A DNA stretch of 64,000 nt, taken from positions 1,674,001 to 1,738,000 of the forward strand of contig NC_009718.1 in assembly GCF_000017545.1 (NCBI RefSeq), written 5' to 3'. The stretch is from Fervidobacterium nodosum Rt17-B1 (lineage in GTDB: Bacteria; Thermotogota; Thermotogae; Thermotogales; Fervidobacteriaceae). Of this stretch, positions 39,680-51,928 are shown piece after piece. The position numbers and the translations under genes are program-made. Below the pieces are notes generated by a model. That model was not told the DNA's origin, made no database searches, and saw nothing but the letters and a program-made list of their open reading frames with translations. Each line of letters opens with the position of its first letter. The first letter of the stretch is position 1.

Positions 39680-40681
39680 CTATATTGCTCTTGCGTAAGT
39701 ACCGTCTTCGACTCTGTAAACAAGCCCTTTTAATTCCATAATTGTGAGTAAAAGCAAAATTTCCGAAAGTGGTTTTGAAATCTTTTCTGATAATTGTTCA
39801 GGATTTAAGTTTGTTTCCAAAGCTTCGAGTAGTAATTTTTCGTCATAATTCAACTCTATGATTTTTCGATGTTCTTTAAATCCATAATATTCCAAAATTT
39901 CAGATGGATGTGTTACAAGAAAAGCACCATTTTTGATTAAATAATTTGTACCTGTACTTGTTGATTTGAATATATCACCCGGAACTGCAAATATATCTTT
40001 ACCCTGTTCTACACCAAATTTTGCGGTTATCAATGCGCCACTATCCGTTCCCGCTTCCGTTACCAAAACACCCTTTGAAACACCGGAAATAATTCTATTT
40101 CTTGCTACAAATGTATATTTTTGAGGTTTTTCCCATGGTAAATATTCACTTATAACGCAACCATTTTTTATAATTTCTTGGTAAAGTCTTTCGTTTGATT
40201 TTGGGTATATGTAATCTACACCGCATCCTAAGACAGCTATTGTTGGTCTTAAGTTTCTCAAAGCTGTTGCGTGTGCGATACTATCAACCCCATAAGCCAT
40301 GCCACTCACAATCACAAAGTGTTTTGATAAATCTGTTGAGAACATTTCCGTAACTTGTTTACCGTAATTGGTCATCTTGCGTGTCCCAACTACGGCAAAC
40401 AAATCGTATGATAAAAATTCAACATTTCCCTTTGCGAATATAAAAACCGGAGGATCTGGAATATGCCTAAGCTCCTCCGGATATTCTTCATCCCAGTAAG
40501 TAATTAAGGAAATATCACCCTTTGATAATCTCATTTCAAGTTTGTGAACTAAATCATTGAACTCTTTAATTTGCTCTGGGGTAATTAAAAAGTCACTCTT
40601 GTTATAAGAAATTAATTCGTCGATATCTTCAAGCTTTTTCTTACAAATTTTATGAATAGCTACTATTTCTGCTTTTTCCAT
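39680..40681 (-). CDS. dprA: DNA-processing protein DprA (Smf)
   Basis: 333 residues. Loads RecA onto incoming single-stranded DNA in natural transformation. Rossmann-like core: VVGTRKMTNYGKQV, IVSGMAYGVDSIAHATAL, VLGCGVDYIYPKSN, FVARNRIISGVSKGVLVTEAG, ALITAKFGVEQGKDIFAVPG. The C-terminal winged-helix (about residues 275-333) is short. GAGGGAT precedes the ATG. The gene starts the dprA-panC-GH31-xse block. Together with cinA at 56905 it is one of two competence-linked genes here, though both are widespread outside competent species. Confidence 0.95.
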   Translation of the reverse strand: MEKAEIVAIHKICKKKLEDIDELISYNKSDFLITPEQIKEFNDLVHKLEMRLSKGDISLITYWDEEYPEELRHIPDPPVFIFAKGNVEFLSYDLFAVVGTRKMTNYGKQVTEMFSTDLSKHFVIVSGMAYGVDSIAHATALRNLRPTIAVLGCGVDYIYPKSNERLYQEIIKNGCVISEYLPWEKPQKYTFVARNRIISGVSKGVLVTEAGTDSGALITAKFGVEQGKDIFAVPGDIFKSTSTGTNYLIKNGAFLVTHPSEILEYYGFKEHRKIIELNYDEKLLLEALETNLNPEQLSEKISKPLSEILLLLTIMELKGLVYRVEDGTYARAI

Positions 40682-41048: not shown

Positions 41049-42094
41049 GATTTTGTTAACCAAAGGTATTGATAAATTTCAAAAATCATATTATCTTCTT
41101 AAATAGGGGACACCCCCCAATATACTCTCAATAAGGGGGTATCCCGACATGACTAATATCCAACTCAAATGCCCTCATTGTGGCTCTTCTAACTTCATCA
41201 AAAACGGTCATGATAAGTTCAAAAACCAAATCTTCTTTTGCAAAGACTGCAAGCGTTACTTTAAACTTTCTTTCACCAAAAAACACAAACTCTTCTCTTT
41301 CCCTTACCCTCGTTGTGTTCATTGTAACCATGTCATGGAAATTTACAAAATCCGCCGTTATTTCGTTCGTTTCAGATGCAGAAAGTGCAACTTCAAAACT
41401 TCTGTTCCACTTTCTCTTCCTCAGCCTGTGCCTTTCAACTTTCATCCTTTCAAATTCTTCCGTTTCCCTATCTATATCGTTCTCAAAGCTTTCATCTTGT
41501 ACTTCAAATACAACCTTTCTCTTCGTGCTATTAAAGCTTGCTTGAATATCAATGTCTCTCATGTTGCTATTTACAAATGGATTATCAAGTTATCTTCTGT
41601 TATTTCGCTTTTTGAGTTTGAGAATGTATTTAAAGTTCACGGTGATGAAACAGTTATTGTATTTCGAGACAAAAAGTACTATGTGTGGCTATTAGTTGAG
41701 CATGGTACGAATTTAATAGTAGCTTGGCATGTATCAAGATATCGTGATATGTCACAAGTTAAGATATTGTTAGATAAATACTTTAGTCAAAGAAAACAAA
41801 ACACACAAATAGAGTTAATAACCGATGGACTAAAAGCGTACGAGATAGCAGTAAAACTAAATTTTGATAATGTTGAGCACAGAGAAGTAAGACTAGGTAA
41901 AAACAACGAATGTGAATCGAAATTTTCGTTATTTAAGATGTTTGTTAGAGCGAAAAGGAGCTTCAAGAAATTTAGCAACATACGGTACTATGTAAATGGT
42001 TTTTGTGTAGTAAGGAACCTATGCAAGTTATATGAGAACGAAAATGAGATGATTACAGCTTTAGCTTCCATCATCACTACTAGTTAACAGCATC
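41049..42094 (+). mobile_element. IS6-like insertion sequence, copy 1 (1046 bp)
   Basis: Ends GATTTTGTTAAC (left) and GATGCTGTTAAC (right end, complement) form a 12-bp imperfect inverted repeat. It is flanked by the 8-bp direct repeat AATATGGG (41041-41048 and 42095-42102). It carries one transposase gene (41149-42087). It lies just upstream of the RnfB-like gene's ribosome-binding site. Copy 2 at 50883-51928 is the same length, in the same orientation, and differs by roughly ten bases. Confidence 0.9.
41149..42087 (+). CDS. IS6/IS240-like DDE transposase (copy 1)
   Basis: 312 residues. Two N-terminal zinc ribbons (CPHCGSSNF...CKDC and CVHCNHVM...CRKCNFK), a helix-turn-helix (LSLRAIKACLNINVSHVAIYKW), and the DDE domain: VHGDET, ITDGLKAY, and the Glu in NNECESKFSLFK. 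Residues around the third motif resemble the IS240 domain of the IS6 family. Intact. The start ATG follows AAGGGGGT, which can pair with an upstream C-tract (41110-41115). Confidence 0.88.
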   Translation: MTNIQLKCPHCGSSNFIKNGHDKFKNQIFFCKDCKRYFKLSFTKKHKLFSFPYPRCVHCNHVMEIYKIRRYFVRFRCRKCNFKTSVPLSLPQPVPFNFHPFKFFRFPIYIVLKAFILYFKYNLSLRAIKACLNINVSHVAIYKWIIKLSSVISLFEFENVFKVHGDETVIVFRDKKYYVWLLVEHGTNLIVAWHVSRYRDMSQVKILLDKYFSQRKQNTQIELITDGLKAYEIAVKLNFDNVEHREVRLGKNNECESKFSLFKMFVRAKRSFKKFSNIRYYVNGFCVVRNLCKLYENENEMITALASIITTS

Positions 42095-42265
42095 AATATG
42101 GGAAATGTATAAATTAAATCGTCAATTTTATACGAATTACAATACAATTATAACTTAAATTTTTTTACAATGCAAATTGAGTTTTTTATCTAGTAATTTT
42201 GCTAAAACTGATTGCCGATTTTCTGATTTTGATGAATTCGTTTCATATAGTTAACACTAAACATC

Positions 42266-42380
42266 TTGAAATTTTACACTTTACAAGGTATAAATATATT
42301 GCAGCGACCCCCCTATCCCCCCTTGGAAGAGTTGGAAAACTTTTTCAAGATACCCCCGGAAAAAACCGGGGGATTTTTTG
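42266..42380 (+). ncRNA. Candidate small RNA with own promoter and terminator
   Basis: Promoter TTGAAA (42266-42271), exactly 17 nt, TATAAA (42289-42294). The expected RNA starts near 42301. It contains two CCCCCC tracts (42308-42313, 42317-42322) and an 11-bp hairpin with a GGAA loop (42323-42348, every position pairable with G-U allowed). It ends in an intrinsic terminator CCCCCGG-A6-CCGGGGG-A-TTTTTT (42353-42379), total about 80 nt. No convincing reading frame. A separate promoter for pelG follows, so it looks like an independent transcript; an attenuator leader for pelG is the alternative. Confidence 0.5.
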
Positions 42381-42382
42381 TT

Positions 42383-42411
42383 TTTAAATTCTTTTATTGG
42401 TATGATATAAT
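42383..42411 (+). promoter_or_regulatory. pelG promoter
   Basis: TATAAT (42406-42411) with TTTAAA 17 nt upstream (42383-42388). It begins right after the T-run of the upstream terminator, 35 nt before the pelG ATG. Confidence 0.5.
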
Positions 42412-42445
42412 AACAACGGAAAAATTTAATATTTCGGGGGATAAG

Positions 42446-43855
42446 ATGGCAGGGATAGGATTTGAATTAAACAAACTGTTAAAACGAAATTCTTTTTTCT
42501 CGGAAGCTGTCGCATTCTTTTATTCTGCAAATATATCTGCAGGACCATGGATAATATCTTCGTTGACACTTTTTCTAATACAAGTTTATATACCTCAACA
42601 GAATATTCCATTCCTAGTCTCAGGAATTATTTATACTTTCATTTTTTCAACAATACTTTTTGGAAGCGTTGCAACTTCCGTTACACGTTATTTATCTGAT
42701 TTGATTTATAAGAAGGAATTTAATAATATATATAAACTTTACACTTCGTTGGTTGGTTATGCGTTTATATCTTCTGGGATATTTCTTACCTTGTTCTTCC
42801 TTATCAACAAAATTTCTGAGTGGCAAAAAATTATTCTTTTTTCATATTCTTTGATTGTTCTTTCGATAATTTGGGTTCAAGTCATTTTTATATCCGCTAT
42901 TAGAAAATTTTCTCCCGTTATTCTAAGTTTTTTATTCGGTGGTACTGCTGGTTTCTTTTTAACTTTGTACCTTTATAAAACCAAAAATGAATATTATGCT
43001 TACGCAGGTTACAATTTTGGTTTAATGATTATACTTACAATTCTTCAACTTTACATTCGAAGATATCTTTATTTAGGAGAAGAGGTGGAAAAAGAACAAA
43101 AAAATATTAATCCTCCGCTTTTTATACTCTCGATTAAGGCATACAAAAAACAGGCACTATCAGGTTTTTTTACTTATATGGCTGCTTGGGTTGATGATTT
43201 TATCGCTTGGATTTATTTCAGATACAGTATTTCAAAAGGTTTTGTATTTGCGCCCCAGTATGATATTCCAATGTTTATCTCATACCTTTTTATAATTCCA
43301 ACCTTGTCACTTTTCGTTCTAAACTTGGAAACGGAATTTTATTTTTACTATAGAGCTTTTTACAAATCTATCGAAGAAAATCGCACTTTGAACTTTATAA
43401 GGATAAGTAAAAATAATTTAGACGAAAGTCTTTATTCTTCAACTAAACTTGTATTAGCGGTTCAATTTTCATTTATGTTAACTGGTCTTATTCTTTCTGA
43501 TAGTTTAGCTGATTTGTTGAGGCTTGATAGCTACGGCTCAACGGCTTTAAAATTTGGTATTGTTGGTGCTGCTGCAAATGGAATTTATCTTTACATTTCT
43601 TTGATAGCGCATTACTTTGACTTGCCTGGTATACCACTTAAATCTTCTATAATGGCCTTTTTGATTAATTTATTTTTATCACCACTCACTGTCAAGCGTT
43701 TGCCTGGAATCGGTTTTGTCATTGGTTTTATTTTTGCCACGATATACAGTTTTATTAGATTTAATCGCATTTATTCTAATTTGCTCATGTTTGAGTTTTC
43801 AAGAAACAGGCTGAAACTTCCGAAGGTAGGGGTTATAATTCATGAAAACAAATAA
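42446..43855 (+). CDS. pelG: PelG-like exopolysaccharide transport membrane protein
   Basis: 469 residues, close to the roughly 456 of P. aeruginosa PelG. The N-terminus MAGIGFELNKLLKRNSFFSE followed by SANISAGPWIISSL is the family hallmark. It has about 12-14 membrane helices, like MATE/Wzx flippases. In the Pel system PelG moves the growing polysaccharide across the inner membrane with PelD, PelE and the glycosyltransferase PelF. The ATG at 42446 has CGGGGGAT upstream; the frame is open further 5' by chance. pelD and pelE homologues follow; pelF, A, B and C are not in the window. Confidence 0.85.
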   Translation: MAGIGFELNKLLKRNSFFSEAVAFFYSANISAGPWIISSLTLFLIQVYIPQQNIPFLVSGIIYTFIFSTILFGSVATSVTRYLSDLIYKKEFNNIYKLYTSLVGYAFISSGIFLTLFFLINKISEWQKIILFSYSLIVLSIIWVQVIFISAIRKFSPVILSFLFGGTAGFFLTLYLYKTKNEYYAYAGYNFGLMIILTILQLYIRRYLYLGEEVEKEQKNINPPLFILSIKAYKKQALSGFFTYMAAWVDDFIAWIYFRYSISKGFVFAPQYDIPMFISYLFIIPTLSLFVLNLETEFYFYYRAFYKSIEENRTLNFIRISKNNLDESLYSSTKLVLAVQFSFMLTGLILSDSLADLLRLDSYGSTALKFGIVGAAANGIYLYISLIAHYFDLPGIPLKSSIMAFLINLFLSPLTVKRLPGIGFVIGFIFATIYSFIRFNRIYSNLLMFEFSRNRLKLPKVGVIIHENK

Positions 43856-50882: not shown

Positions 50883-51928
50883 GATTTTGTTAACCAAAGG
50901 TATTGATAAATTTCAAAAATCATATTATCTTCTTAAATAGGGGACACCCCCCAATATACTCTCAATAAGGAGGTATCCCGACATGACTAATATCCAACTC
51001 AAATGCCCCCATTGCGGCTCTTCTAACTTCATCAAAAATGGTCATGATAAATTCAAAAACCAAATCTTCTTTTGCAAAGACTGCAAGCGTTACTTTAAAC
51101 TTTCTTTCACCAAAAAACACAAACTTTTCTCTTTCCCTTACCCTCGTTGTGTTCATTGTAACCATGTCATGGAAATTTACAAAATCCGCCGTTATTTCGT
51201 TCGTTTCAGATGCAGAAAGTGCAACTTCAAAACTTCTGTTCCACTTTCTCTTCCTCAGCCTGTGCCTTTCAACTTTCATCCTTTCAAATTCTTCCGTTTC
51301 CCTATCTATATCATTCTCAAAGCTTTCATCTTGTACTTCAAATACAACCTTTCTCTTCGTGCTATTAAAGCTTGCTTGAATATCAATGTCTCTCATGTCG
51401 CTATTTACAAATGGATTATCAAGTTATCTTCTGTTATTTCGCTTTTTGAGTTTGAGAATGTATTTAAAGTTCACGGTGATGAAACAGTTATTGTATTTCG
51501 AGACAAAAAGTACTATGTGTGGCTATTAGTTGAGCATGGTACGAATTTAATAGTAGCTTGGCATGTATCAAGATATCGTGATATGTCACAAGTTAAGATA
51601 TTGTTAGATAAATACTTTAGTCAAAGAAAACAAAACACACAAATAGAGTTAATAACCGATGGACTAAAAGCGTACGAGATAGCAGTAAAACTAAATTTTG
51701 ATAATGTTGAGCACAGAGAAGTAAGACTAGGTAAAAACAACGAATGTGAATCGAAATTTTCGTTATTTAAGATGTTTGTTAGAGCGAAAAGGAGCTTCAA
51801 GAAATTTAGCAACATACGGTACTATGTAAATGGTTTTTGTGTAGTAAGGAACCTATGCAAGTTATATGAGAACGAAAATGAGATGATTACAGCTTTAGCT
51901 TCCATCATCACTACTAGTTAACAACTTC
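50883..51928 (+). mobile_element. IS6-like insertion sequence, copy 2 (1046 bp)
   Basis: Same ends as copy 1 (GATTTTGTTAAC at the left, GAAGTTGTTAAC at the right end complement) with its own 8-bp duplication AAGTTTGG (50875-50882 and 51929-51936). It differs from copy 1 at about eight positions in the first half and a few at the right tip; the last ~500 bp of the gene are identical. Orientation is the same as copy 1. It lies just upstream of the NSS symporter start. Confidence 0.9.
50983..51921 (+). CDS. IS6/IS240-like DDE transposase (copy 2)
   Basis: 312 residues, one amino-acid difference from copy 1 (Ile for Val in the segment FPIYIILKAF). All zinc ligands and the DDE residues are kept. 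Six of the seven coding differences between the copies are silent, which suggests selection on the protein. The ribosome-binding site here is AAGGAGGT, stronger than the AAGGGGGT of copy 1 and less able to pair with the upstream C-tract. Confidence 0.88.
   Translation: MTNIQLKCPHCGSSNFIKNGHDKFKNQIFFCKDCKRYFKLSFTKKHKLFSFPYPRCVHCNHVMEIYKIRRYFVRFRCRKCNFKTSVPLSLPQPVPFNFHPFKFFRFPIYIILKAFILYFKYNLSLRAIKACLNINVSHVAIYKWIIKLSSVISLFEFENVFKVHGDETVIVFRDKKYYVWLLVEHGTNLIVAWHVSRYRDMSQVKILLDKYFSQRKQNTQIELITDGLKAYEIAVKLNFDNVEHREVRLGKNNECESKFSLFKMFVRAKRSFKKFSNIRYYVNGFCVVRNLCKLYENENEMITALASIITTS

Follow-up and report, generated by a model that had tools for sequence, protein, structure and literature searches.

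We confirm that the promoter-hairpin-terminator unit at 42266-42380 of the window (the whole stretch of DNA analysed, 64,000 nucleotides) is real, and we propose, with a probability of roughly 0.6, that it is the gene for a trans-acting small RNA (type A) whose C-rich core would cover G-run Shine-Dalgarno sites, and that it has a paralog, type B. The proposal draws on computed features, namely an RNA family and its conservation, the terminator, a predicted open core, changing gene neighbours, the paralogs, an Hfq gene, and upstream boxes in excess of shuffled sequence; transcription of A and B is deduced from the sequence.

Organization of the type A locus

A first-pass annotation had described a near-consensus promoter with 17-nt spacing followed by about 80 nt running to a terminator, two CCCCCC tracts, an 11-bp GGAA-capped hairpin, and a second promoter serving pelG. 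All of these are present, with the correction that the hairpin has 12 pairs in the predicted fold; both promoters are sequence matches only. The features of the region are:

41149..42087, plus strand: IS transposase (Pfam DDE_Tnp_IS240, E 3.2e-32), outside the sRNA unit
42251..42256, plus strand: TTAACA box, 57 bases 5' of the first C-tract and 22 bp from the next box
42266..42294, plus strand: putative sRNA promoter, TTGAAA (42266-42271), 17 nt, TATAAA (42289-42294)
42273 and 42280: TTTACA boxes within the sRNA promoter spacer
42302..42380, plus strand: sRNA gene, type A, about 75-80 nt; a conserved block with a predicted 5' end
42308..42322, plus strand: core CCCCCC-UAU-CCCCCC (CCCCCC 42308-42313, UAU 42314-42316, CCCCCC 42317-42322), predicted to be unpaired and common to type B
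42322..42349, plus strand: predicted hairpin CUUGGAAGAGUU-GGAA-AACUUUUUCAAG, 12 pairs
42353..42380, plus strand: intrinsic terminator, with stem-loop arms CCCCCGG-AAAAAA-CCGGGGG (42353-42372) and a T-run (ATTTTTT)
42383..42411, plus strand: promoter-like site before pelG, TTTAAA, 17 nt, TATAAT, with TG
42436..42443, plus strand: pelG ribosome binding site GGGGGATA, a perfect complement of sRNA UAUCCCCC and possible target site
42446..43855, plus strand: pelG, a gene for sugar-polymer export (start ATG 42446; Pfam PF16933, PelG, E 5.9e-111), outside the sRNA gene

The order along the strand is promoter, GCAGCGACCCCCCTATCCCCCCTTGGAAGAGTTGGAAAACTTTTTCAAG, terminator, second promoter-like site and pelG. 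The IS transposase sits between a gene for an Fe-S protein and the sRNA, and leaves the sRNA promoter and boxes intact. The same transposase is present in two window copies (41149-42087 and 50983-51921), whose ribosome binding sites differ by one base, AAGGGGGTATCCCGACATG in the copy near the sRNA and AAGGAGGTATCCCGACATG in the other.

Conservation of two RNA types across Thermotogota

The promoter does not by itself distinguish the unit from its surroundings: 14 kb of the window contain 56 promoter-like sites compared with 59.3 expected in shuffles, and by pattern alone the sRNA promoter is no better than chance. The unit's terminator is the only one with seven G-C pairs among the 4 terminators in the scanned 14 kb. 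We judge the unit to be real because it is conserved on comparison, and not because of its promoter pattern. A blastn comparison with 41 genomes recovers the block, at E 2e-25 or better, in 7 of the 8 other genomes of the window's genus; in other genera and in a second family its 5' part, CAGCGACCCCCCTATCCCCCCTTGGA, is exact or near-exact. Allowing at most 2 mismatches, CGACCCCCCTATCCCCC occurs in 76 of 103 Thermotogota genomes, often twice, and the annotation's description of an orphan unit understates it, as many species carry two related RNAs, across the phylum.

Type A consists of the 5' motif GCAGCGACCCCCCUAUCCCCCCUUGGA and a terminator, and recurs across the order; its copies (n=29) are mostly CAGCGACCCCCCUAUCCCCCCUUGGA, most with a short hairpin before the terminator, and the CUUGGA...UCCAAG-like stem is found again in other type A copies. 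Type B consists of CCCCCUAUCCCCCUUGAGAUACACCCCCCACGGC and a terminator, is located in the same genome as type A, and reaches most of the phylum; its copies (n=24) are mostly ACCCCCUAUCCCCCUUGAGAUACACCCCCCACGGC followed by the terminator, and include a third C-tract. The two types have the core C5-6-UAU-C4-6 in common. Another 19 copies are divergent (group O, mainly in families f6, f8, f9 and f10); they contain the core and terminator and have fewer upstream boxes. Type A is distributed over families f1, f2 and part of f9, and type B over f1, f2, part of f3, f4, f5, f9 and f10, with one A and one B per genome as a rule. The type B copy of the window's genome is at G000:C1 410126-410198 on the minus strand (L049, L361), tail to tail with mnmE.

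The annotation had proposed a covariance-model search in other Thermotogae, with a lack of conservation counting against a small RNA, and matches are found across the phylum. At E<=1e-6 the type B model (R1) matches 70 of 103 genomes and the type A model (R2) 31 of 103, both matching in 29, counts that include the 23 (B) and 27 (A) copies from which the models were built; at E<=0.05 the numbers are 90 of 103 and 79 of 103, a level at which R1 and R2 cross-match. R2 places the window copy at G000:C1:1716302-1716383. With only 4 pairs in R1 and 8 in R2, the models are in effect sequence profiles. The type A alignment holds 26 of the 29 copies plus L045 (the near duplicates L022, L037 and L043 are omitted), and the type B alignment 20 of 24 plus L067, L068 and L079 (L081, L084, L086 and L089 are omitted). 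The 27 aligned type A sequences share nine invariant C, and the 23 of type B an invariant C5-UAU-C5; terminators are poorly aligned in the type A set, and conservation rests on sequence and not on covariation counts. To look beyond Thermotogota, genome contigs were scanned with the pattern CCCCCCTATCCCCCYT, which matched at least 119 stretches, and R1 run on 94 of these loci found nothing below E 0.08 except two Thermotogae/Kosmotogaceae records, the 25 loci outside this run being L101, L114, L139, L146, L172, L175 (taken as Thermotogota) and L200-L218. Rarer relatives outside Thermotogota may exist.

Under one fixed rule, a terminator is present in 72 of 73 core-bearing copies, and the sole copy without one runs off the end of its contig. 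Applied to 70-72 flanking windows at each of five offsets, this rule yields 1, 6, 1, 2 and 1, and in shuffles 1.5 of 72. Terminator sequence is wholly different between families and the pairing is kept. This regularity also bears on whether the conserved block could be a DNA-level element such as a repeat or transposon end, a reading favoured by the IS transposase lying 219 bases upstream in the window, but to which we give virtually no credence: that transposase is absent from the corresponding interval in relatives L017-L023, which have the RNA nonetheless, single A and B copies are the rule, and a terminator follows the core almost without exception.

The C-tracts vary slightly: in some Thermosipho-type copies their lengths differ by one or two bases. 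They could in principle encode a short proline-rich peptide (PPYPP), and one frame in the window's genus gives QRPPYPPLEE. However, single-base changes in tract length (CCCCC, CCCCCC, CCCCCCC) would shift the frame, no start codon with a ribosome binding site was seen at a conserved place in the copies examined, and wobble-position bases are conserved too, so that a coding function deserves hardly any weight.

Predicted structure and Hfq

The annotation's claim that the C-tracts are exposed agrees with predicted folds at 37 and 70 C, in which the core is mostly unpaired. Mean unpaired values at 37 C and 70 C are 0.75 and 0.81 for type A (n=29), 0.75 and 0.95 for type B (n=24), and 0.79 and 0.89 for group O (n=19), with 2 of the 29 type A copies not exceeding 0.5 at 37 C. 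For the window copy, the predicted fold includes both hairpin and terminator and leaves the C-tracts free. The annotation had further suggested that the GGGGG arm of the terminator might pair instead with either C-tract as a switch. We rejected this candidate, as only 9 of the 29 type A terminators contain GGGGG and none of the 24 of type B do, and the fold of the window copy keeps terminator and C-tracts apart at both temperatures.

An Hfq gene is present in 98 of 103 Thermotogota genomes (E 1.9e-30 in the window's genome), and together with the U-rich terminator tail this provides the features expected of an Hfq-dependent sRNA; the RNA pair would give Thermotogota Hfq a likely client. Most genomes have one Hfq-like gene, and three of family f8 (G048, G049 and G050) have 3-4 each.

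Gene neighbourhoods

In the window's genus, type A lies between a divergent gene for a small Fe-S protein (with dprA behind it) and pelG; in Thermosipho-type genera it is upstream of dnaB, and in the Pseudothermotoga group beside a gene for an Fe-S-binding oxidoreductase subunit. Type B has mnmE as a neighbour in f1 and a miaB-like radical SAM gene in f2, and in f3 it is divergent from a gene for a PHO4-type phosphate permease, one representative of each having been checked by Pfam. The gene upstream of type B in the window's genome is presumably flhA-like.

These arrangements address the possibility that the RNA is a cis-acting leader or attenuator of pelG, terminating early with signal-dependent read-through. 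The RNA is directly 5' of pelG and in the same direction in the window's genus, as such a leader would be, but the constant association with pelG expected of a leader or riboswitch is lacking, with neighbours varying between genera and the RNA standing before dnaB or other genes elsewhere. Furthermore, pelG has a promoter-like site of its own, the alternative terminator pairing is not conserved, and the neighbours of type B are wholly different, and we find this reading very unlikely. Because the neighbours change between genera while the RNA stays, we favour a stand-alone trans-acting sRNA gene over a pelG leader, and the annotation's view, that of an independent gene for a small RNA that has a promoter and a terminator to itself, holds good.

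Promoter boxes

Boxes of the form [GT]T[AT]AC[AC] are located upstream of 26 of 29 type A copies, where shuffles give 6.8 (sd 2.3), and for type B the figure is 22 of 24, where shuffles give 5.3 (sd 1.9); because the copies share descent, both comparisons overstate independence. The -57/-35 box pair of the window copy is also found in 6 other type A copies of its genus. With a slightly looser form of the box, the spacings by group are 22, 32-34, 33, 44, 45 and 20-21 bp; others are 7 (and 13) in f3 type B and 17 and 26 in f9, with further distances too. The main spacings are near multiples of the helical turn, a post hoc observation that was not predicted. The phased TTAACA-like boxes suggest that one shared regulator, which might be a response regulator of the OmpR/PhoB type, may act on both A and B by binding phased direct repeats.

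A 10-bp direct repeat, for example CTTAACATTTCTTAACA, is found in several Thermotogota pstS promoters, and those at L398, L400, L402, L403, L405 and L406 contain 10-bp direct repeats of CTTAACATTT / CTTAATATTT; this repeat is probably a Pho box. Membership of the sRNAs in the Pho regulon was considered and rejected: the half-site is similar, but the sRNA boxes are mostly 20-22, 32-34 or 44-45 bp apart and the pstS repeat is 10 bp.

Candidate targets of the core

The proposal that the C-tracts target ribosome binding sites is plausible if weakly supported, although the GGAGG sites that the annotation had in mind fit less well than G-run sites do. Target prediction against ribosome binding sites, which it had also recommended, reveals a modest G-run enrichment and no target kept beyond chance. 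Among 12 genomes, GGGGGATA is found 0-9 nt before ATG 202 times against 38 in the backward control (some of the 202 being 16S-like sites), GGGGGAAT 165 against 54, and GGGGGTAA 116 against 42, and GGGGGAUA before AUG is modestly above permuted controls. As the G-run patterns are all enriched before ATG, G-runs are the main effect and the ATA adds little; such an excess would accompany any Shine-Dalgarno sequence as well. Extending the complement to GGGGATAGGG before ATG brings no enrichment (63 compared with 72 in the backward control, 103 genomes), and GGGGATAGGG-ATG was rejected as a general target rule.

At pelG, TTTCGGGGGATAAGATG is an 8-nt perfect complement of sRNA UAUCCCCC. Its duplex energy ranks 6 among 50 window genes, with stronger pairings at unrelated genes, and the pelG GGGGGATA site was not found in G004, G007 and G008. 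Targets were compared across families using 60 site stretches (15 from G000, 17 from G008, 11 from G030 and 17 from G024) that leave out the pelG site itself and 16S-like sites. Only a ComM-like Mg-chelatase gene has a site in two families, which is about chance, and five further gene pairs are within one genus, genome or family. Given this small enrichment and the absence of a target kept beyond chance, we put direct Shine-Dalgarno pairing of the core with mRNAs no higher than the probability given at the outset, that is, somewhat favoured.

Both ComM-like genes (L296 in G008 and L320 in G030) have GGGGGATA as their ribosome binding site. Three curious cases concern dprA, or its positional counterpart, next to type A: the sequence GGGGGATAGGG(G/A)ATG is present there in G004 (C1:1899560-1899574), G007 (C1:1357352-1357366) and G008 (L304), with an 11-12 nt complement of the core; L304 was identified as dprA by Pfam, and the G004 and G007 genes by place. 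The window dprA (39680-40681, minus strand) has GAGGGATA only. The ComM-like genes and dprA hint at targets among DNA-uptake genes, at chance level. Four genomes of the window's genus each have two occurrences of GGGGGATATTGGACAATG, at sites that we take to be 16S rRNA. As a partner, 16S rRNA was rejected, with no GGGGGATATTGGACAATG among the matches listed for G024, G030, G059 and G078.

Proposed mechanism

The near-invariant core exceeds what pairing with variable ribosome binding sites strictly needs, and this counts against the pairing view. An explanation that would account for it is that the core is the binding site of a protein, either a C-tract-binding regulator or Rho, with the RNAs acting as a sponge or scaffold. 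The length, spacing and UAU of the core are near-invariant phylum-wide while outside the core A and B are unlike, no mRNA target is conserved beyond chance, and type B has an additional C-tract, all in keeping with such a site, but the shifts of a base or two in C-tract length in some Thermosipho-type copies argue against it, and we regard it as unlikely. A broader version, possible but doubtful, is that the core is kept for one invariant partner, whether a C-tract-binding protein or a conserved RNA, and that one TTAACA-box regulator induces both RNAs as an ancient phylum-wide switch. If true, a deep-branching phylum would have a post-transcriptional switch that acts globally, with a reach like that of 6S or Csr.

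According to the preferred reading of Shine-Dalgarno pairing, the core C5-6-UAU-C4-6 would be presented single-stranded near the 5' end of both A and B, with the intrinsic terminator last. The core would most likely act on many mRNAs, by pairing with their G-run Shine-Dalgarno sequences (GGGGG, GGGGGAUA, AAGGGGG), and such pairing would block ribosome binding and thereby repress the messages, probably assisted by Hfq bound to the terminator U tail. Promoters with TTAACA/GTAACA boxes look coordinated, such that A and B may be induced together by a common signal. The pair would make riboregulation at 65-80 C directly testable, namely how pairing by G-C alone tells ribosome binding sites apart at high temperature.

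Comparison with known systems

In Rfam release 15, only four tRNAs reach the gathering score in the whole window, and the 17 matches up to E 5 in the stretch 42240-42460 are all far below gathering. A full-text literature search with the core in DNA or RNA letters gave no match, and no title or abstract in the Thermotoga/Thermotogota sRNA literature describes a C-rich pair, a search that covered titles and abstracts and not the T. maritima ncRNA table. The pair of C-rich RNAs appears to be previously unlisted, and type A belongs to no known RNA family; by analogy, it would work like the C-rich Shine-Dalgarno-pairing sRNAs of the IsrR, FsrA and RsaE kind, whose features (exposed conserved C-tracts, a short RNA and an intrinsic terminator) are present in sequence and predicted fold.

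Conservation of trans-acting small RNAs does not usually extend beyond a genus or family, and a pair of RNAs with a near-invariant core of 13-15 nt across a deep-branching thermophilic phylum would be a first global riboregulator there. RepG of Helicobacter pairs a C/U-rich single-stranded stretch with a G-run in a leader, but unlike the Thermotogota pair it has a single main target with a variable G-run, and its sequence is unrelated. RsaE/RoxS is C-rich, acts on translation or mRNA decay, and is controlled by Rex, and the LhrC paralogs have C-rich pairing motifs in common.

A transcriptome study of T. maritima lists 12-13 putative ncRNAs and reports a paucity of non-coding RNAs (PMC3636130). 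These are from the same phylum, and the accessible parts of that study describe no definable structure and name no C-rich pair; type B may stand in its ncRNA table, unrecognised as a family. The staphylococcal IsrR is alike in combining an intrinsic terminator with several C-rich regions that are conserved and single-stranded, and these regions pair with Shine-Dalgarno sequences (PMC9410917). In contrast, IsrR is from staphylococci and not Thermotogota, it shows no match at Rfam level to the RNAs described here, the available portions of that paper mention no CCCCCC-UAU-CCCCC core, and Fur control and iron targets are features of IsrR and not ones established for the Thermotogota pair. RsaE/RoxS is likewise a conserved sRNA, although it belongs to Bacillales and differs in sequence (PMC6435200, PMC5419742). 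The LhrC sRNAs of Listeria (PMC4132741) are likewise multicopy within one genome and are under the two-component system LisRK, but their sequence and phylum are different, and it is the Thermotogota pair that is spread phylum-wide.
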